Source of the DNA: a virus | Virus record (IMG/VR): IMGVR_UViG_3300049846_000558 | Location: 1 to 26,772 of that record | Reading direction: 5' to 3' (one strand) | Length of the DNA stretch: 26,772 bases | Shown here: piece by piece, positions 1,731-26,411 of the stretch | How positions within the stretch are numbered: position 1 is the first letter of the stretch | Layout: every line of letters begins with the position of its first letter | The notes under the pieces: generated by a model | Seen by the model: the letters and a program-made list of their open reading frames with translations, nothing else | What the model was told of the DNA's origin: nothing | The model's database searches: none | Position numbers and translations under genes: made by a program

Positions 1731-3442
1731 CCAAACCCGAGCAATATATCCATGACGTACTCAAGGGGAAAATTGTCACTGGAAGCCTCGCCCGATTGGC
1801 TGTACAGCGACACGTGGACGATCTCAAGAGGAAGAAGTGGGAGTATTATTTCGATAGTGAAGCCGGACTCTCAGCTATTCAAAGGATGGAAGCCTTCTGC
1901 CACCACGAAGGAAAGCTCATCGGCCAGCCGTTCATCCTCACGCCGTGGCAGGCTTTCGTCGTATACGTCGTCTTCGGATGGAAAAACAAAGCAGGAAAAA
2001 GGAGGTTCAAATACGTCTACGTGGAGATAGCCAAGAAAAACGGAAAAACAGCCTTCGCTGCATTGGTGGCCCTGTTCCTGATGATCATGGACGGGGAGTC
2101 GAACGCGGAGGTATATACTTTTGCCAGCCACAAGGACCAGGCTAAAATCTGCTTCTCCGACTGCCAGAAGATGTTAAAGCACATGGTAGACACGGTCCCA
2201 AGTATTGCCCCAAAGGCATGGATAGGCCAGAACGCAGTGGCCTGGTATCCGACTGCCTCCAAGATCATGCCCATGTCCAAGGACAAAGCCGGCGGCGGAA
2301 AGAAGGACGGAATCCGGGCGCACGGCGGGATCTGTGATGAATACCACGCCCACGAAACCAACGACGTATTCGACCAGGTGAAGTCCTCCATGATCAACCG
2401 CGACCAGCCGCTCATGTGGATCATCACCACGGCAGGCTTCAACAAGCTCGGCCCTTGCTATTCTTTCAGGGAGGTGGTGGTGCAGATTCTCAACGGTGAG
2501 AAAGTCAACGAAAACACCTTTGGCATCATCTTCACCCTCGACAAAGACGACGACGAGTCCGACTCAAAGAACTGGATCAAGTCCAACCCGAGCATGGACG
2601 TGCCTGGGTGCGCCACCATGAAGAACCTCAAGGAGGAATATGCCGACGCCATCGCCAAGGGCGCCGGGGCCGAGGTGAACTTCAAGACCAAGAACCTGAA
2701 TATGTGGACCGACTCCGAGGAGGTCTGGGTCAACGACCGCGCATGGATGGCCAACACCCACAAGCTCGACCGCAAGGAGCTGGAGGGCATGGTATGCTAC
2801 GGAGGGCTTGACCTTGCCAGTGGTATCGACTTCAACGCCCTGACGCTTTTCTTCCCGAACGCCTACACGGTCAAGGGCAAGAAGATCCACGCCATCCTCT
2901 CCTGGTACTGGAAGCCTGCCGACCTTATCAACGACAAACGGCAAAAGCGGGATTACCGGCAATGGGTTAAAGACGGTTATATCCTGGACACGCCCGGCAA
3001 CGTGATCGACTGGACCTACATCGCCGAGAAGATCAAGGAGCTTTCCACGGTCTACTCCATCCACTCGATCAGCTACGACCCCTACCGCGCCAACCACGGG
3101 GTACTTCAAGAATTACTTGCATACGGGCTGCAGTGCTATGCCTTACCTCAAGTGATGAGCCACCTGTCCGAGCCTACCATGCAGGTGGAGACGCTGGCTA
3201 CGGCCGGTCACTTCGAGCATTTCTCTAACCCCGTCACCCGCTGGATGATGGGTAACGTGAAGATCATCCGGGATTCAAAAGGTAACATGATGATCACAAA
3301 GGGCAAAAGCAAGGGCCAGGTAGACGGCCCGGCATCGATTATCAATGCGGTGGGTGACTACCTGACATTCAAGAACAAGGAATCAGACGGGGGTTTTTTG
3401 GTCATAAACACTAAAAAAGATGAAGCCAGAATCTTTGGTTGA
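1727..3442 (+). CDS. terL: Terminase large subunit (ATPase-nuclease)
   Basis: DNA-packaging motor and headful/cos nuclease acting at the portal of the procapsid. The N-terminal ATPase domain shows a Walker A-like AKKNGKT (102-108), Walker B GICDEYH (201-207, with D204 and E205) and the coupling segment WIITTAG (231-237). The C-terminal RNase H-like nuclease shows acidic residues in the expected places: LDLASG with D362, YDPYR with D451, and D533. Length (571 aa) is normal for the P27-partnered/HK97-like group. It is coupled upstream by an ATGA overlap, and its last 23 bases overlap the next gene. Confidence 0.97.
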   Translation: MTKPEQYIHDVLKGKIVTGSLARLAVQRHVDDLKRKKWEYYFDSEAGLSAIQRMEAFCHHEGKLIGQPFILTPWQAFVVYVVFGWKNKAGKRRFKYVYVEIAKKNGKTAFAALVALFLMIMDGESNAEVYTFASHKDQAKICFSDCQKMLKHMVDTVPSIAPKAWIGQNAVAWYPTASKIMPMSKDKAGGGKKDGIRAHGGICDEYHAHETNDVFDQVKSSMINRDQPLMWIITTAGFNKLGPCYSFREVVVQILNGEKVNENTFGIIFTLDKDDDESDSKNWIKSNPSMDVPGCATMKNLKEEYADAIAKGAGAEVNFKTKNLNMWTDSEEVWVNDRAWMANTHKLDRKELEGMVCYGGLDLASGIDFNALTLFFPNAYTVKGKKIHAILSWYWKPADLINDKRQKRDYRQWVKDGYILDTPGNVIDWTYIAEKIKELSTVYSIHSISYDPYRANHGVLQELLAYGLQCYALPQVMSHLSEPTMQVETLATAGHFEHFSNPVTRWMMGNVKIIRDSKGNMMITKGKSKGQVDGPASIINAVGDYLTFKNKESDGGFLVINTKKDEARIFG

Positions 3443-3935
3443 TCCGGTCAATATCGCCAATATGATCAGCACGGCATCACATTGCCCTGCCGGTGCTTTT
3501 GTTGAGGTGGGCGTGTATAAAGGCGGCACGGCCTGGCACCTTGACCAGCTTGCCCAGGAGCAGGGCCGCGAGTGCTTCCTTTACGATACATTTGAAGGCA
3601 TACCCTATAGCGATCCAGTCGACCATCACAAAGTCGGTGATTTTAGCGATACCAGTTATGAGCGGGTAAGGGATTTACTGCCGCGTAGCAAGGTGATTAA
3701 GGGCATTTTCCCAGCCTCTGCCGTCAGGATGGACAAGGTGGCCTTTGTGCATCTGGATTGTGATCAATACCAGTCTATCATCGACTCATGCCGGTATCTG
3801 GAGGCGCTCATGGTTCCGGGCGGGGTGATGTGGTTCGATGACTCGCCCATCCTTGCCGGCGCGGAGATTGCCGTGCGGGAGCTTTACCAGGGCAGGATAC
3901 AAGAAATAAACGGTAAGCATTTCGTGAGATTCTAA
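3420..3935 (+). CDS. TylF/MycF-like SAM-dependent O-methyltransferase
   Basis: Class I methyltransferase resembling the macrocin O-methyltransferase (TylF/MycF) family, whose characterised members methylate sugar hydroxyls. Visible: SAM-binding EVGVYKGG (29-36), DTFEGIP (56-62), HLDCDQY (111-117) and PGGVMWFDD (133-141). In characterised members, aspartates in the last two blocks bind the metal and position the acceptor. At 171 residues it is shorter than the roughly 230-260 of TylF-type enzymes and lacks most of the N-terminal part, yet the core motifs are complete. The start overlaps the large terminase by 23 bp, so it belongs to the packaging transcript. The substrate is unknown; a host glycan or a glycosylated virion protein is a guess. 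Confidence 0.8.
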   Translation: MKPESLVDPVNIANMISTASHCPAGAFVEVGVYKGGTAWHLDQLAQEQGRECFLYDTFEGIPYSDPVDHHKVGDFSDTSYERVRDLLPRSKVIKGIFPASAVRMDKVAFVHLDCDQYQSIIDSCRYLEALMVPGGVMWFDDSPILAGAEIAVRELYQGRIQEINGKHFVRF

Positions 3936-21086: not shown

Positions 21087-21337
21087 CAAACGAGGTTCTT
21101 CAACTACAGGTATGGCTACTGGGCGGGGTTATCTCCTTTTTGCTCGTGGTGCTAATTGGCATACTCAAAAGCAATCTTTCCGATATAAAGAAGGTTTTGG
21201 ATGACCACACCCGCGACATCAGCGAATTGAAGAACTATAAAGCCTCAACGGATGAACGCTATACCAACAACAAGGAGATAGTGAACGAAATCCGCACCAA
21301 GTTGGACTTGATCTACGAACTGCACCGCGCTAAATGA
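21083..21337 (+). CDS. Membrane-anchored coiled-coil protein (lysis cassette)
   Basis: 84 residues: a short N-terminus, one hydrophobic segment (about 10-28, WLLGGVISFLLVVLIGIL), then a charged coiled coil (KKVLDDHTRDISELKNYK..). This is an N-in, type II membrane topology. It is tied by ATGA overlaps to both neighbours, and the next gene is the endolysin, so a lysis role (holin partner, antiholin or spanin-like) is likely. The sequence alone does not choose between them. Confidence 0.6.
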   Translation: MTNEVLQLQVWLLGGVISFLLVVLIGILKSNLSDIKKVLDDHTRDISELKNYKASTDERYTNNKEIVNEIRTKLDLIYELHRAK

Positions 21338-21804
21338 ATCTGAGCGAAAGAGTTTCATTGCTTACCGCCACCAAGAGCGACACGGCCATAAGGCTGGGGA
21401 TAGACAATACACCCGATCAGGTACAATTAGAGAACATGAAACGGGTATCAGGTAAAGTAATTGAGCCGATCTTAGCACGATTTCCGATGATATTCGTTTC
21501 GTCTTTCTTCCGTTCGGAGAAACTGAACAAAAGAATAGGCGGGGCTAAAAATTCTCAGCACATGACCGGCGAGGCGGTTGACCTGGATTCGCCAGATAAT
21601 ATTGCAAACCTTGACGTTTTCAACTTCGCTAAAGAGTATTTGACTTTTGACCAACTGATCTACGAAAGCCCTGACGAGAAAGGTATTCCCTCATGGGTGC
21701 ATATCAGTTTGAAAGACAAAGACAATAGGGGCCAGATATTGGTTTTCCTGAGTTCGACTAAGAAATACATTCCTTTTGGAGAGTATCAAATAGGCATGAT
21801 TTAA
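21334..21804 (+). CDS. Endolysin, M15 family zinc peptidase
   Basis: 156-residue peptidoglycan peptidase of the M15A type (D-Ala-D-Ala carboxypeptidase / L-alanyl-D-glutamate peptidase-like). Visible: SSFFRSEKLNKRIGG, then SQHMTGEAVDLD with zinc ligands H76 and D83, and WVHISL with H123, the third ligand. The SxxR pattern (S57, R60) preceding H-x6-D is characteristic. There is no signal peptide, so it needs a holin for export. It probably cleaves a stem peptide of the Gram-negative host. It starts in ATGA overlap with the membrane gene and ends 2 bp before the holin-like gene. Confidence 0.9.
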   Translation: MNLSERVSLLTATKSDTAIRLGIDNTPDQVQLENMKRVSGKVIEPILARFPMIFVSSFFRSEKLNKRIGGAKNSQHMTGEAVDLDSPDNIANLDVFNFAKEYLTFDQLIYESPDEKGIPSWVHISLKDKDNRGQILVFLSSTKKYIPFGEYQIGMI

Positions 21805-22399: not shown

Positions 22400-22721
22400 C
22401 CTCAAGCCGGTAGCCCTTCCGCGTTGGCAGGTGTGGAGGATGATTCATGAGGTACAGTTGGGCCGCGCTTGTGACACCTTGCGCCAGCAGCTTCAAAAAG
22501 AGGTAACCATTGGTGCCAATGCACAGGTGAAAGCCGACAGCGTGATCTCCATGCAGCAAAAGCAAATTGCCTATCGGGACGAACTTGCCAAGGTGCAGAC
22601 CGAAAGGATTCTCAATGCGCAGGCGGTCAATCAGGAATTAAAGAAAGAACTCCGACAGCAAAAACGACTGACCATAGCTACGGCCGTGGTCGGGCTGATC
22701 TTTGTAATCATAGCCCTTTAA
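22314..22721 (+). CDS. Exported coiled-coil protein with C-terminal membrane segment
   Basis: Start taken at ATG 22314, giving a clear Sec signal peptide (MKLCAVLLCLVCLTLKSTA, probable cut after A19); the earlier in-frame ATG at 22275 would add a charged leader. The mature part is a coiled coil (about 60-115) that ends in a hydrophobic segment (LTIATAVVGLIFVIIAL, about 119-135). The Cys residues in the signal do not form a canonical lipobox. It overlaps the upstream spanin-like gene by 86 bp in another frame. Best guess is a second spanin-type component, but a C-terminal membrane anchor is atypical for an o-spanin. Confidence 0.55.
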   Translation: MKLCAVLLCLVCLTLKSTAQQMPFIQSDSLKPVALPRWQVWRMIHEVQLGRACDTLRQQLQKEVTIGANAQVKADSVISMQQKQIAYRDELAKVQTERILNAQAVNQELKKELRQQKRLTIATAVVGLIFVIIAL

Positions 22722-23008
22722 GGCGGGTCTTTGGCACATACCGCCCTTGTCGAGGCAGTACCCGATCCGTCTGAAGTAGGGTGTGAGGTGATCAGCGACT
22801 TCTGGTAGGCAGCCGCCTCCGACTCGGTCATCTCGCACTTCTTTACATCGTATTCAACCTTACTGTATTGGTTGCTGCTTCCCGACAGGATGTAATAGGT
22901 CACGTGGCAGGTATAGCAGGCTTTGGGCTCGGGGGCGGAAGATGAACAGCCTAGGACCAAGGCCAAGAGGAGCATGTAAGGTTTTCCTGACAATCGTTCG
23001 CTAGCCAT
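22718..23008 (-). CDS. Small cysteine-containing lipoprotein
   Basis: 96 residues from the ATG at 23008; a GTG two codons upstream (23014) is an alternative. The N-terminus is a lipoprotein signal with lipobox VLGC (cysteine 21) followed by Ser-Ser-Ser. The mature part has four cysteines: CYTC (31-34), C58 and C91, probably two disulfides. There is also a Glu/Ala-rich helix (ESEAAAYQKS). I recall similar CYTC..C..C lipoproteins in Bacteroidota genomes, unnamed. It converges with the lysis cassette (4 bp overlap at 22718-22721) and lies downstream of the RHH-like regulator on the same strand. The opposite orientation makes late lysis use less likely and superinfection exclusion or a host-surface role more so (inference). 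Confidence 0.7.
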   Translation of the reverse strand: MASERLSGKPYMLLLALVLGCSSSAPEPKACYTCHVTYYILSGSSNQYSKVEYDVKKCEMTESEAAAYQKSLITSHPTSDGSGTASTRAVCAKDPP

Positions 23009-23053
23009 TGACACAAAGGTAAGGCTATTTTATTTTGCCTTTCATTTGTGTCA
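23009..23053. repeat. Large imperfect dyad at the lipoprotein start
   Basis: TGACACAAAGGTAAGGC (23009-23025) and GCCTTTCATTTGTGTCA (23037-23053) are inverted copies matching at 15 of 17 positions, with an 11-nt loop TATTTTATTTT. On the minus strand the ATG at 23008 follows the stem base directly. It could control translation of the lipoprotein, end the regulator transcript, or bind a regulator. No T-run follows it on the minus strand. Confidence 0.55.
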
Positions 23054-23067
23054 CTCGTTGTCTTTGG

Positions 23068-23238
23068 TTATCGGTATGTTTGGGCAACTACGTGGTCAAT
23101 GGCCTGTCCCAATGAACCTAATTGCTCTTTATGTTCTTCCAAAACGGACAATGTACCCGGTTTAACTTTGGCCGAAATTTGCACCCTTTTGAGGGTTTGT
23201 GGTAATTTGGGCCTTCCTGCTTTGCGTTTCTTTGCCAT
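23068..23238 (-). CDS. Ribbon-helix-helix-like DNA-binding regulator
   Basis: A 56-residue frame reading leftward from ATG 23238 to TAA 23068. The basic N-terminus (AKKRKAGRPKLP) is followed by a likely beta strand (TLKRVQISAKV), then two helices around a turn (GTLSVLEEHKEQLGSLGQAIDHVVAQ). The G-R-P-K start, a basic strand, and a helix ending with a G-x-x-G-x-A-I-D-x-V-V pattern are typical of Arc/CopG-type RHH repressors, which bind as dimers to short palindromes. A 20-bp palindrome sits in its own promoter (23259-23278). Frame continuity, an upstream Bacteroidota-type promoter and the divergent context support it. Confidence 0.75.
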   Translation of the reverse strand: MAKKRKAGRPKLPQTLKRVQISAKVKPGTLSVLEEHKEQLGSLGQAIDHVVAQTYR

Positions 23239-23242
23239 AGGA

Positions 23243-23273
23243 CAAAAATAACACTAAAAATATTTGCATGCAA
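23243..23273 (-). promoter_or_regulatory. Leftward promoter of the regulator gene
   Basis: On the minus strand TTG (plus 23271-23273) is followed after 20 nt by TATTTTTG (plus 23243-23250), an exact match to the Bacteroidota -7 consensus TAnnTTTG with normal spacing. The ATG lies only 4 nt after the -7 box, so the message would be leaderless or nearly so. Confidence 0.6.
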
Positions 23274-23278
23274 GTATT
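23259..23278. promoter_or_regulatory. Palindromic operator candidate
   Basis: AATATTTGCATGCAAGTATT is a 20-bp palindrome with one mismatched pair; the inner 10 (TTGCATGCAA, 23264-23273) are perfect. It covers the -33 element of the leftward promoter and touches that of the rightward one, so a bound protein would control both. The adjacent RHH-like protein is the natural candidate. Confidence 0.55.
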
Positions 23279-23306
23279 GACATTGCCGATTAAAGTATTA
23301 CCTTTA
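23277..23306 (+). promoter_or_regulatory. Rightward promoter of the small-gene/recombination operon
   Basis: TTG (23277-23279), 19 nt, then TACCTTTA (23299-23306), one base off the Bacteroidota TAnnTTTG consensus. It precedes the first gene of the rightward operon (ATG 23359) with an A-rich untranslated leader of about 45 nt, including the CAAAGC-rich stretch before the start. The sequence from 23307 to 23358 shows no other feature. Confidence 0.5.
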
Positions 23307-23358: not shown

Positions 23359-23556
23359 ATGAAACCCAAGAAATCACCAATTCAACAAATCCATGACAGA
23401 GGAATGGTCGCTGTTATTGACGGTGACAGAATGGTAATAGTATCAGAGGTTAAAGTCGAAGATACCGATAATAAAGTGTCAGAGCTTGAGTCGGCGGGTT
23501 ACGAAGTGGGCTACTCAAACAAGGATATAGTTTTCTATACTGAAAGCGAGGACTAA
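23359..23556 (+). CDS. Small protein, first gene of the rightward operon
   Basis: 65-residue protein with a basic start (KPKKSPIQQIHDRG), then a likely beta-alpha-beta unit (MVAVIDGDRMVIVSEVKV...YEVGYSNKDIVFY) and an acidic end. Not recognised. It lies behind the rightward promoter and is directly followed by the next ATG after its stop with no gap, consistent with operon organisation and a possible early phage role. Confidence 0.6.
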   Translation: MKPKKSPIQQIHDRGMVAVIDGDRMVIVSEVKVEDTDNKVSELESAGYEVGYSNKDIVFYTESED

Positions 23557-23832
23557 ATGGGTCACCGTCAGAAAATGACCGATAAGCAAAGGCTCGATTG
23601 GGATATGATGCAATACCGAGCAAGACTAGAGGCAAGGCGTGGCCATAATTATCCATACTGGGAAGACAACAAATACGCGAACTGGCAAATTGGAGAAACC
23701 ACAAAAAGTGAATTAGTCGCCAAAGAATTACTTGCTGAAACTAAGCGTAAGTATCATTCAGCCAAAATCATTTGCGGATATGTTCAGACTATTCAAAGAG
23801 TAAAACATTACACAATAATTTATAAACCATGA
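23557..23832 (+). CDS. Small basic protein of unknown function
   Basis: 91 residues, rich in Lys, Arg, Tyr and Trp (for example DWDMMQYRARLEARRGHNYPYW), with a helical middle and a C-terminal strand (YTIIYKP). No motif is recognised. It starts immediately after the previous stop and overlaps the following gene by ATGA. Composition would fit a nucleic-acid-associated early protein, but this is only an impression. Confidence 0.55.
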   Translation: MGHRQKMTDKQRLDWDMMQYRARLEARRGHNYPYWEDNKYANWQIGETTKSELVAKELLAETKRKYHSAKIICGYVQTIQRVKHYTIIYKP

Positions 23833-24092
23833 AACCGACAGTATTAGCCATCCATCGTGGATACACCATCACGGACGAGCCTTACGGTTCTGAGCCGTTC
23901 ACGATATACACCCCTGAAAACAGGGTACTGGATCATTGCGATGAATGCACTATCAAACAGTGCATGGATACTATTGACGTGATCGAGGACGAACATGAAG
24001 CCAACGAGCGCAGGGAGAAGGAAAGGGGCTGGTATCCGGGCGCATGTTTCGACAGAAGTTATCCGGAAAACTATTCAAACATAAGAGCATGA
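23829..24092 (+). CDS. Small acidic protein of unknown function
   Basis: 87 residues with an N-terminal beta-like part (VLAIHRGYTITDEPYGSEPFTIYTPENRVLD), then HCDECTIKQCM and a charged helix. The three clustered cysteines plus histidine (H-C-D-E-C..C) could bind a metal ion but do not form a standard finger. Coupled by ATGA overlaps on both sides. Confidence 0.55.
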   Translation: MKPTVLAIHRGYTITDEPYGSEPFTIYTPENRVLDHCDECTIKQCMDTIDVIEDEHEANERREKERGWYPGACFDRSYPENYSNIRA

Positions 24093-24337
24093 GAGTAGTC
24101 TGCCTGAAAGATTCCTGGAAGGTCGCCCGCAAAGGATTGGGCGCAATTCCAACCATCCACCCCGTCAAGGGGGAGATATACTCAGTCAAAGCAGAAAGCG
24201 ATGGGGCTTATTTGATTGATGGATTCCCCCATGCGATGTATTCCGCTCATTCCTTCCGCCCGGTTGACGATACGTTCGGGCCGAACATTTGCGAGATCAT
24301 CGAGCAGCAAGTTGAACTGGAAACAATACAATCATGA
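24089..24337 (+). CDS. Small protein of unknown function
   Basis: Start chosen at ATG 24089, which overlaps the upstream stop (ATGA); an earlier in-frame ATG at 24044 lies inside the previous gene. The 82 residues form a beta-rich fold: MRVVCLKDSWK, PTIHPVKGEIYSV, GAYLIDGFPHAMYSAHSFRPV, and a short acidic C-terminal helix. Proteins with the pattern V.C....W......P..G..Y.V......Y.I.GF....Y.A..F.P. are familiar small phage or host proteins of unknown function. Confidence 0.6.
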   Translation: MRVVCLKDSWKVARKGLGAIPTIHPVKGEIYSVKAESDGAYLIDGFPHAMYSAHSFRPVDDTFGPNICEIIEQQVELETIQS

Positions 24338-24495
24338 TCCGCCTCTTCGTCACACAAACCCCCACCGGCTTTGAGTGTAGCTACCAACACTCAACCGAGA
24401 AATGGTCAGGCAAGACCATACAGGAAGCACTCAACGCTTTCGAGCGGACGTATCTGGACTACTACGGAAGCCAACCGATCTATTGCTGGCAGTGA
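24334..24495 (+). CDS. 53-residue protein of unknown function
   Basis: A short frame from ATG 24334 (ATGA overlap with the previous gene) to TGA 24493-24495. The sequence starts with a beta-hairpin (MIRLFVTQTPTGFECSYQHSTEKWSG) and continues with a helix (TIQEALNAFERTYL) ending DYYGSQPIYCWQ. It fits exactly between its neighbours, with a TGATG junction to the next gene, which argues that it is real despite its size. Function unknown. Confidence 0.6.
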   Translation: MIRLFVTQTPTGFECSYQHSTEKWSGKTIQEALNAFERTYLDYYGSQPIYCWQ

Positions 24496-24965
24496 TGGAA
24501 ACACGAATTGAATGGAGGCCATCTATTGGCCAGTATGAGGTGTCCAGCGATGGGCAAGTCCGCAGAGTAGGCGGGGCTGTTTTAAGAAACAGGGGAGGAC
24601 TATACCCTAATGTTGCGCTTTCCACAAACGGTAAGCCTAAGACCTACATGATTCATCGATTGGTTGCACTTGCCTTTTTGGGTCTAAAACATGGGCAGGT
24701 AGTTGATCATATCAACGGCGACAAGAATGATAACCGCGTGGCTAATCTCCGATGTGTTACGCAAAGAGAGAACACGTCGACATTCAAAAGGAACAACAGG
24801 TCGCTACCGATCGGCGTGAGCCTTAATGACTCACGATATGTAAACCGATTTCGCGCCAGAATAAGGATAAATGGCAAACACGTTGATCTTGGTAGTTATC
24901 CCTCCCCGGAATGCGCCTCCCTTGTATACGAAGAAACCAGATTTCATTTAACCAAATCAATATGA
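24495..24965 (+). CDS. NUMOD4-HNH-AP2 endonuclease
   Basis: 156-residue site-specific endonuclease of the homing type. The start at ATG 24495 shares its A with the upstream TGA. Order: NUMOD4-like EWRPSIGQYEVSSDGQVRRV (6-25); HNH core with IHRLVALAFL (53-62) and VVDHINGDKNDNRVANLRCVT (69-89, catalytic H72 and the N-D-N-R segment); and an AP2-like C-terminal DNA-binding part with FRARIRINGKHVDLGSYPS (119-137). No intron is evident around it: both flanking genes are intact and joined by short overlaps, so it is a free-standing element built into the operon. Confidence 0.88.
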   Translation: METRIEWRPSIGQYEVSSDGQVRRVGGAVLRNRGGLYPNVALSTNGKPKTYMIHRLVALAFLGLKHGQVVDHINGDKNDNRVANLRCVTQRENTSTFKRNNRSLPIGVSLNDSRYVNRFRARIRINGKHVDLGSYPSPECASLVYEETRFHLTKSI

Positions 24966-25702
24966 GCGAACAATCCACCGAACTAATCCAATCTGATGGC
25001 GCATTTTCCTCTGCTGGCTTTGACCACGCCCAGCGAGTGGCAAAGATGCTTTCTTCTTCATCCCTCATTCCTGAGCAGTACCGCGGCAACATTCAAAACA
25101 CCATGATTGCCCTGGAGATGGCAACCCGAATAGGTGCATCACCGCTCATGGTAATGCAAAACCTTTACATCGTTCATGGCCGCCCGTCATGGTCCAGCTC
25201 GTTCATCATTGCCGCCCTCAATAGTTGCCGGAGATTCAGCCCCTTACGTTTCCAGATTTCTGGAGAAGGTGAAAATATGGGCTGCCGCGCTTGGGCCTAT
25301 GATCTGAGTAACAACAACGAAAAGATTGAGGGGCCACTTGTTACTATGAAAATGGCCAAGGCTGAGGGATGGCTTGACAAGAACGGAAGCAAATGGAAGA
25401 CCATGCCGGAGTTGATGATGCGCTACCGTGCTGCCGCTTTCTTTGGTAGGCTTTACGCCCCTGAGATTATGATGGGGATGCAAACCGCTGAGGAGGTTAT
25501 TGATATCACCGCGCAAGAGGTGAAGCCGGAAGAATCCAAAAAGACGAAAGAGGCCGAGCGCATCACCCTGATGATCCAGGACGCCCAGACGCTCGAAGAC
25601 TTAGGGGCCATCGAAAGCGGTGCAGACCTGGACTACGACCAGATGGAGGCCATTGCAACCAAGAAGGAGCAACTCAAAACCAAGACCAATGGACGCAAAT
25701 AG
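24962..25702 (+). CDS. RecT-like single-strand annealing protein
   Basis: 246-residue protein with the layout of RecT/Bet-type recombinases: helical N-terminal part (FDHAQRVAKMLSSSSLIPEQYR), then NTMIALEMATRIGASPLMVMQNLYIVHGRPSW, then the WKTMPELMMRYRAAAFFGRLYAPEIMMGMQTAEEV segment near the C-terminal core, and a charged tail. It would anneal phage single strands during recombination or repair. Start chosen at ATG 24962 (ATGA overlap with the HNH stop). The next gene is a lambda-exonuclease-like nuclease, the usual partner. The RecT assignment rests on pattern recognition without a search. Confidence 0.78.
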   Translation: MSEQSTELIQSDGAFSSAGFDHAQRVAKMLSSSSLIPEQYRGNIQNTMIALEMATRIGASPLMVMQNLYIVHGRPSWSSSFIIAALNSCRRFSPLRFQISGEGENMGCRAWAYDLSNNNEKIEGPLVTMKMAKAEGWLDKNGSKWKTMPELMMRYRAAAFFGRLYAPEIMMGMQTAEEVIDITAQEVKPEESKKTKEAERITLMIQDAQTLEDLGAIESGADLDYDQMEAIATKKEQLKTKTNGRK

Positions 25703-26411
25703 CATACGTTTCCGCTGCTCCCAGCTGGGTGTACTCATGGTGCAACCCCGGAGCAAGAGCGAAGAACTCAGCGAAACCACTAAGACCTACCTGTCCGAGG
25801 TGTACGTCAATGCCAGGTACAACCGCCGCAAGGAACTGACCAACCGCTACATCGAGAAGGGACTGGCCGTGGAGGAAGATTCCATCACGCTGTATTCCAG
25901 GGTGAAGAAGATCCCCTTCTTCAAGAACGAGCAGCACTTCGCCAACGACTACATCCAGGGAACGCCCGACCACGTGGGTGACTTTGTCCTGGACATCAAG
26001 AGCAACTGGGACATTTTCACCTTCACCAACACCTTCAAGGACGACCTGAATAAGAAATACTACTGGCAACTGATGGGCTACATGGCCCTGACCGGCAAGA
26101 AGGAGGCCCGGCTTGCGTACTGCCTGGTCAATACCCCGGACGTGATGATCGAGGATGAAAAGCGCAGGCTCGCCTGGAAGATGGGATTAATCGACCCGGA
26201 AGCCAACTTGGAGTACATCAAAGCCTGCAAGCAGATCGAGCTGTTGAGCCTCTATGACGACATCCCGCTATCAGAGCGGGTGAATGAAATCGTCATTCCC
26301 TACGATGCGCTGGCCATCGAATCCCTGTACAACAAGATCATCGCCTGCCGCCAGTACATGGCCGACACATGGCCCAAGTTCTTCCGCGAGCCGGTGAGTG
26401 TAGAAGAGTAA
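25689..26411 (+). CDS. PD-(D/E)XK exonuclease (YqaJ / lambda exo-like)
   Basis: 240-residue nuclease that resects double-stranded ends for the annealing protein upstream. Start chosen at ATG 25689, giving MDANSIRFRCSQLG; an earlier frame start at 25620 lies inside the RecT-like gene. Visible catalytic layout: E62/E63 (GLAVEEDSI), QGTPDHVG with D94, LDIKS (101-105, the D/ExK lysine is K104) and Y-W-QLMGYMAL with Q127. This order matches YqaJ/RecB-type exonucleases. It overlaps the RecT-like gene by 14 bp. Confidence 0.88.
   Translation: MDANSIRFRCSQLGVLMVQPRSKSEELSETTKTYLSEVYVNARYNRRKELTNRYIEKGLAVEEDSITLYSRVKKIPFFKNEQHFANDYIQGTPDHVGDFVLDIKSNWDIFTFTNTFKDDLNKKYYWQLMGYMALTGKKEARLAYCLVNTPDVMIEDEKRRLAWKMGLIDPEANLEYIKACKQIELLSLYDDIPLSERVNEIVIPYDALAIESLYNKIIACRQYMADTWPKFFREPVSVEE

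Follow-up and report, generated by a model that had tools for sequence, protein, structure and literature searches.

A 56-codon gene for a putative RHH-type regulator at a divergent promoter junction in a genome fragment of a probable Bacteroidota phage

Gene organization around the junction

The sequence analyzed here (the window) is a viral contig fragment of 26,772 bases, and the genome it represents is incomplete. On its minus strand lies a small open reading frame of 56 codons (23068-23238), which starts with ATG and encodes a protein with a basic GRPKLP tail (MAKKRKAGRPKLP...QTYR). The original prediction had claimed a short minus-strand gene at this place, and the claim is borne out by the open reading frame list and by homologues in independent contigs (see below). 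Its codon score of 0.017 per codon is similar to those of the adjacent early genes and is equalled by 12% of wrong-frame segments. Coding statistics are indecisive at such a length, and the frame is therefore called a gene because of its homologues.

Downstream of the 56-aa gene, on the same strand, is a gene for a putative lipoprotein of 96 aa with the lipobox LVLGC (22718-23008). It has a promoter box of its own, TACCTTTG (23021-23014), located 13 nt before its ATG. The opposed early operon begins on the plus strand with genes for proteins of 65, 91, 87 and 97 aa (23359-24337), followed by genes for a RecT-like annealing protein (24959-25702, plus strand; PHROG 561, E 8.7e-82) and a recombination exonuclease (25671-26411, plus strand; PHROG 5715, E 6.5e-48). 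An HNH endonuclease gene (24402-24965; Pfam HNH_3, with weak NUMOD4 and AP2 matches) lies within this operon, overlaps a 53-aa open reading frame, and looks like a homing endonuclease insertion. The recognized late lysis gene before the switch encodes an endolysin (21334-21804, plus strand; PHROG 894, E 6.7e-23). The small gene had been described as separating the lysis genes from the recombination operon, but it has no direct contact with the lysis genes, since the minus-strand lipoprotein gene intervenes. The stop codons of the lipoprotein gene and of the last plus-strand gene on the lysis side overlap (22718-22721), so that the converging transcripts meet with no gap.

A long, strong inverted repeat, TGACACAAAGGTAAGGC...GCCTTTCATTTGTGTCA (23008-23054), covers the lipoprotein promoter including its -7 box. 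Its minus-strand RNA has a folding energy of -17.7 kcal/mol (z -4.4 relative to shuffles); in read-through RNA, the hairpin would bury the region before the lipoprotein ATG, and a leaderless mRNA would be without it. The repeat could also be an operator or a terminator. A search of Rfam found nothing.

Promoters and palindrome in the divergent gap

The gap between the 56-aa gene and the first plus-strand gene (start 23359) measures 120 bp, as had been predicted, and is 69% AT. It contains a near-perfect palindrome of 20 bp, AATATTTGCATGCAAGTATT (23259-23278), a candidate operator in which nine of the ten pairs match. The promoter of the 56-aa gene consists of a -33 TTG (23273-23271, minus strand), which lies inside the palindrome, a spacer of 20, and the -7 box TATTTTTG (23250-23243). 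Only one other full TTG/TAnnTTTG match exists on the two strands of the window, and the chance of any full match in a 120-bp gap of such composition is about 0.06. The candidate promoter of the early operon runs in the opposite direction, with a -33 TTG (23277-23279), a spacer of 19 and the weak -7 box TACCTTTA (23299-23306), and has a predicted start at about 23311; it misses the final consensus G and is thus weaker than originally described. Two Bacteroidota-type promoters had been claimed, and the minus-strand one stands as a full match while the plus-strand one is the weaker member of the pair. Numbered along the minus promoter, the palindrome lies at -21 to -40, and along the plus promoter at -52 to -33; it thereby touches both -33 elements as claimed, containing the minus-strand TTG and overlapping the plus-strand element by 2 bp.

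How unusual is such a palindrome? One of this kind arises with P about 0.010 (1.0%) in 120-bp Markov sequences of the same composition. Over the entire window 0.75 palindromes of such quality are expected and two are present, and so the argument for this one is its location and not its rarity. A search for similar sites, proposed earlier as a check on the operator, came out negative, with no second site within 3 mismatches elsewhere in the 26.8-kb window, which is a genome fragment. A third copy of the half-site AAGTATT (23293-23299, plus strand) follows the copy at 23272 by 21 bp, or two helical turns; with P about 0.12 by chance, a half-site array is only a lead and is not claimed here.

The position of the -7 box leads to a prediction about the message. 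According to ribosome profiling and RNA-seq in Flavobacterium johnsoniae, the first T of this box lies at -12 and transcription begins 4-5 nt past its end (PMC6847099). The first T of TATTTTTG lies 12 nt before the A of the ATG, so that the predicted transcription start coincides with the start codon and the mRNA would be leaderless. A TAHHTTTG box 12-13 nt before the ATG is found at both minus-strand genes, those for the 56-aa protein and the lipoprotein, and at no other of the 78 ATG open reading frames of at least 50 aa on both strands; the chance of a box at this distance is about 0.004 per gene. Judging from this spacing, both mRNAs are predicted to be leaderless. In Bacteroides thetaiotaomicron, 5' UTRs shorter than 10 nt make up only about 3.7% (PMC7366714).

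Homologues of the 56-aa protein

The 56-aa protein matches no family in Pfam, PHROGs or NCBIfam and no sequence in the PDB, and scanning viral and genome contigs for its exact peptides returned nothing. Comparison with phages and plasmids gave weak matches only, one of which, in a Streptomyces phage, lies inside an ADP-ribosyltransferase gene and was rejected as probably due to chance. A pattern based on the second helix (GxLGxAID spacing) likewise produced chance matches only and was set aside, and searches of Bacteroidota genomes with the protein and with its alignment yielded only apparent chance matches. Homologues were recovered by a degenerate pattern on GRPKLP plus the strand (RVxI), which found them in contigs L194, L195, L199 and L200; an alignment scan added one in L206 and a last pattern one in L229.

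Four homologues, all from viral contigs, were aligned with the window protein and are 36-40% identical. The residues invariant among these five sequences are G8-P13, R18, V19, A23, V25, P27, T29, L33, G44 and D48. The GRPKLP family (L194, L195, L200, L206 and L229, the last assigned by profile and eye) resembles the window protein in length range, and its four aligned members share the conserved core, but the homologues have a longer N-terminal tail (WGGKR-NQ) and three fewer residues leading into the second helix. In L194, L195, L200 and L206 the homologue is encoded within a packaging operon, between the terminase and portal genes and co-directional with them, rather than at a junction of opposed genes. 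On an Exiguobacterium plasmid, the gene of a distant profile match neighbors that of a MobP2 relaxase. The packaging-operon locations indicate that the family is not dedicated to switches. A 171-aa open reading frame of the window (3420-3935), which by eye looks like a small-molecule methyltransferase, also lies between large terminase and portal genes. The analysis adds a small-protein family that matches nothing in Pfam, PHROGs and NCBIfam (in NCBIfam, for the window member only), with one member at a probable switch and others in packaging operons.

A predicted RHH fold

The protein had been proposed to be of Arc/CopG type. Sequence profiles give no backing to this proposal: Pfam RHH_1 (PF01402, CopG-like) fails to match the window at a threshold as loose as E 10, hmmscan found none, and hhalign against a Bacteroidota RHH domain profile produced only an out-of-register alignment. 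Structure prediction, which had been put forward as the check, was more favorable. From the single sequence, AlphaFold2 returned one long helix that matches nothing in the PDB. With four homologues added, the model (which rests on five sequences) is extended up to residue 28 and then forms helices at 29-40 and 43-55, with pLDDT 72.8 and pTM 0.39. The strand, expected at about residues 18-25, is not assigned in this model because it is a monomer lacking its partner.

When the homologue-based model was compared with 350,542 PDB chains by Foldseek (E up to 10), all six chains retrieved were RHH proteins (CopG, Arc twice, AmrZ, NikA and AtaR), with E values of 4-9. A second aligner, VIA, gave 22 rows, every one of them an RHH protein by its title, with Z at most 3.3. 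The nearest solved folds therefore belong to the RHH superfamily, at scores that are weak because the domain is small (40 residues). Considering the homologues and the predicted fold together, the protein probably has an RHH fold, and the Arc/CopG assignment is supported by these two lines and by none of the sequence profiles.

The same slot in related phages

Of 80 recT relatives, the closest were judged for the position before the early operon. In eight of these (L004, L006, L008, L009, L011, L015, L016 and L017) a minus-strand gene lies directly before the plus-strand operon, and in four of the eight (L004, L006, L008 and L011) that slot gene matches PHROG transcriptional repressors. Palindromes occur in the gaps of at least five of the eight (L004, L006, L009, L011 and L017), with a different sequence in each. 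A tyrosine integrase gene is present in seven of the eight records with a slot gene and in none of seven records taken for comparison that lack such a repressor-like gene (L002, L003, L005, L007, L010, L012 and L013), several of the records being fragments. No integrase gene was found in the 26.8-kb window fragment; L016, whose order of late genes, minus-strand regulator and early operon is the most similar, has none either. No relatives of the major capsid protein were found. In seven of the eight slot relatives, the gene after the repressor encodes a lipoprotein or a secreted protein; a strict lipobox rule is passed by four of those seven and by the window gene, against a base rate of 1.5% of all open reading frames.

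The matching slot implies that the window is laid out like a lysogeny module, the 56-aa protein standing where the relatives have a CI-like one. The CI-type switches of temperate phages, as in L006, L008 and L011, share with the window the divergent repressor gene, the early recombination operon, the lipoprotein or secreted-protein gene and the palindromes in the gap. They differ in carrying an integrase gene, and their repressors are proteins of 216-263 aa with PHROG repressor matches as opposed to a 56-aa RHH-like protein. The suggestion that this junction may be the control point of the phage is strengthened by these comparisons, since relatives place recognized repressors, accompanied by integrases, in exactly the same slot. 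The anatomical part of the proposed autoregulatory switch also stands: a repressor-like gene diverges from an early operon, and a palindrome that could serve as the operator lies between them, over the promoters. Both the promoters and the relatives point to Bacteroidota-type bacteria as the host.

Proposed mechanism and alternatives

Because the 56-aa gene sits where relatives keep their lysogeny repressor, it probably represents a miniature version of that switch. RHH dimers would bind the 20-bp palindrome, and a bound dimer would cover the -33 element of its own leaderless promoter, providing autoregulation, as well as the edge of the -33 element of the recombination-operon promoter, which would silence the lytic early genes. 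Under repression, expression would be confined to the repressor and lipoprotein genes, both with leaderless promoters of their own, and the lipoprotein would then be a surface protein of the lysogen; it is a candidate for superinfection exclusion or for surface cargo. We give an even chance to this reading, in which the phage is probably temperate and an autoregulated RHH repressor sits in the slot of CI, repressing the early operon. The packaging-operon homologues, the lack of an integrase in the window and in L016, and the missing consensus G of the early promoter count against it. So do the weak fold scores, the unmatched RHH profiles and a palindrome whose own rarity amounts to no more than P about 0.01. 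A more specific version, in which the complete lysogeny repressor of a temperate Bacteroidota phage has shrunk to a leaderless 56-residue RHH protein that replaces the HTH/CI type, with the second leaderless gene as lysogen cargo, is possible, but we lean against it.

The same anatomy would serve a strictly lytic phage in which an Arc- or Cro-like protein acts as a timing regulator, turning off its own gene and the early operon at late onset with no lysogeny involved. This is the main rival, unlikely but to be taken seriously: an integrase is absent from the window and from the similarly ordered L016, and the small size resembles auxiliary regulators more than CI proteins. On the other hand, an integrase accompanies the slot gene in all but one of the eight related records, and a lipoprotein neighbor is what the lysogeny modules of relatives carry. 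Quite improbable, in our judgment, is a role as a small DNA-binding helper in packaging, replication or recombination of the genome, with an incidental place at the junction. The position between large terminase and portal genes of every other close homologue whose surroundings were read, and the relaxase neighboring the distant plasmid match, would fit such a role, but the window gene would be transcribed alone, away from the packaging and recombination operons, from its own promoter with a palindrome over it.

Many small RHH proteins are antitoxins, and AtaR, TacA1 and MazE-mt are among the fold matches. That the protein serves as antitoxin in a type II toxin-antitoxin system is nevertheless very improbable, and this reading was rejected because no toxin-like partner gene is present; the neighbor is a lipoprotein gene with a separate promoter box, and no PADLOC model matches either gene. 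It is just as hard to believe that the open reading frame is spurious, with the palindrome and boxes as accidents of an AT-rich gap. The codon score is unremarkable and palindromes of this kind are expected about 0.75 times per window, but homologues in independent contigs keep the GRPKLP, RV, A, V, P, T, L, G and D positions, which largely refutes this explanation, and the -7 box lies at the exact leaderless distance.

Repressors of comparable size are known, and so is the type of mechanism, of which the window would hold a new variant, the novelty lying in a tiny repressor in this slot, an undescribed family and paired leaderless promoters. Arc and Mnt of phage P22 (immunity I region) are RHH proteins of about 50-80 residues with operators near divergent promoters; their target is the antirepressor, and the phage has a separate HTH repressor as well. 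The 56-aa protein is likewise a small, phage-borne and RHH-like protein with Arc among its nearest folds, but it occupies the main repressor slot itself, and no sequence relationship was detected. CopG, the best fold match, is a tiny RHH repressor that acts on its own promoter through a pseudo-palindromic operator in the control of plasmid copy number; its setting is a plasmid copy control operon with no divergent phage operon, and it has no significant sequence similarity to the window protein. Lambda cI mRNA made from PRM likewise has no leader. We found no precedent for RHH immunity repressors in the literature searched, a result that does not show that none exists.

Which phages can live together in one cell is determined by their immunity repressors, and a repressor of 56 codons would escape gene callers that apply length cut-offs. 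If the repressor reading is correct, some Bacteroidota phages judged to be repressor-less may be temperate, and the minimum size of a phage repressor could be tested with one palindrome and one short gene.

Other small proteins beside the early operons of relatives

In L017 (1897-2106) and L004 (4362-4565), the first early-operon gene opposite the repressor encodes a protein that is RHH-like by eye, with no Pfam or PHROG family and no significant score against the RHH profile. A 48-aa protein of L002 (5474-5620), also RHH-looking by eye and not significant against the RHH profile, is encoded by the first gene of a minus-strand operon facing the recT operon, and it is possibly another hidden small regulator at a divergent junction. 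Finally, early operons of L003 (5175-5348) and L010 (5178-5348) encode, just upstream of recT, proteins of 56-57 aa with a GGAR-GCGRKP-like tail, which form a separate small-protein family with a similar basic tail.
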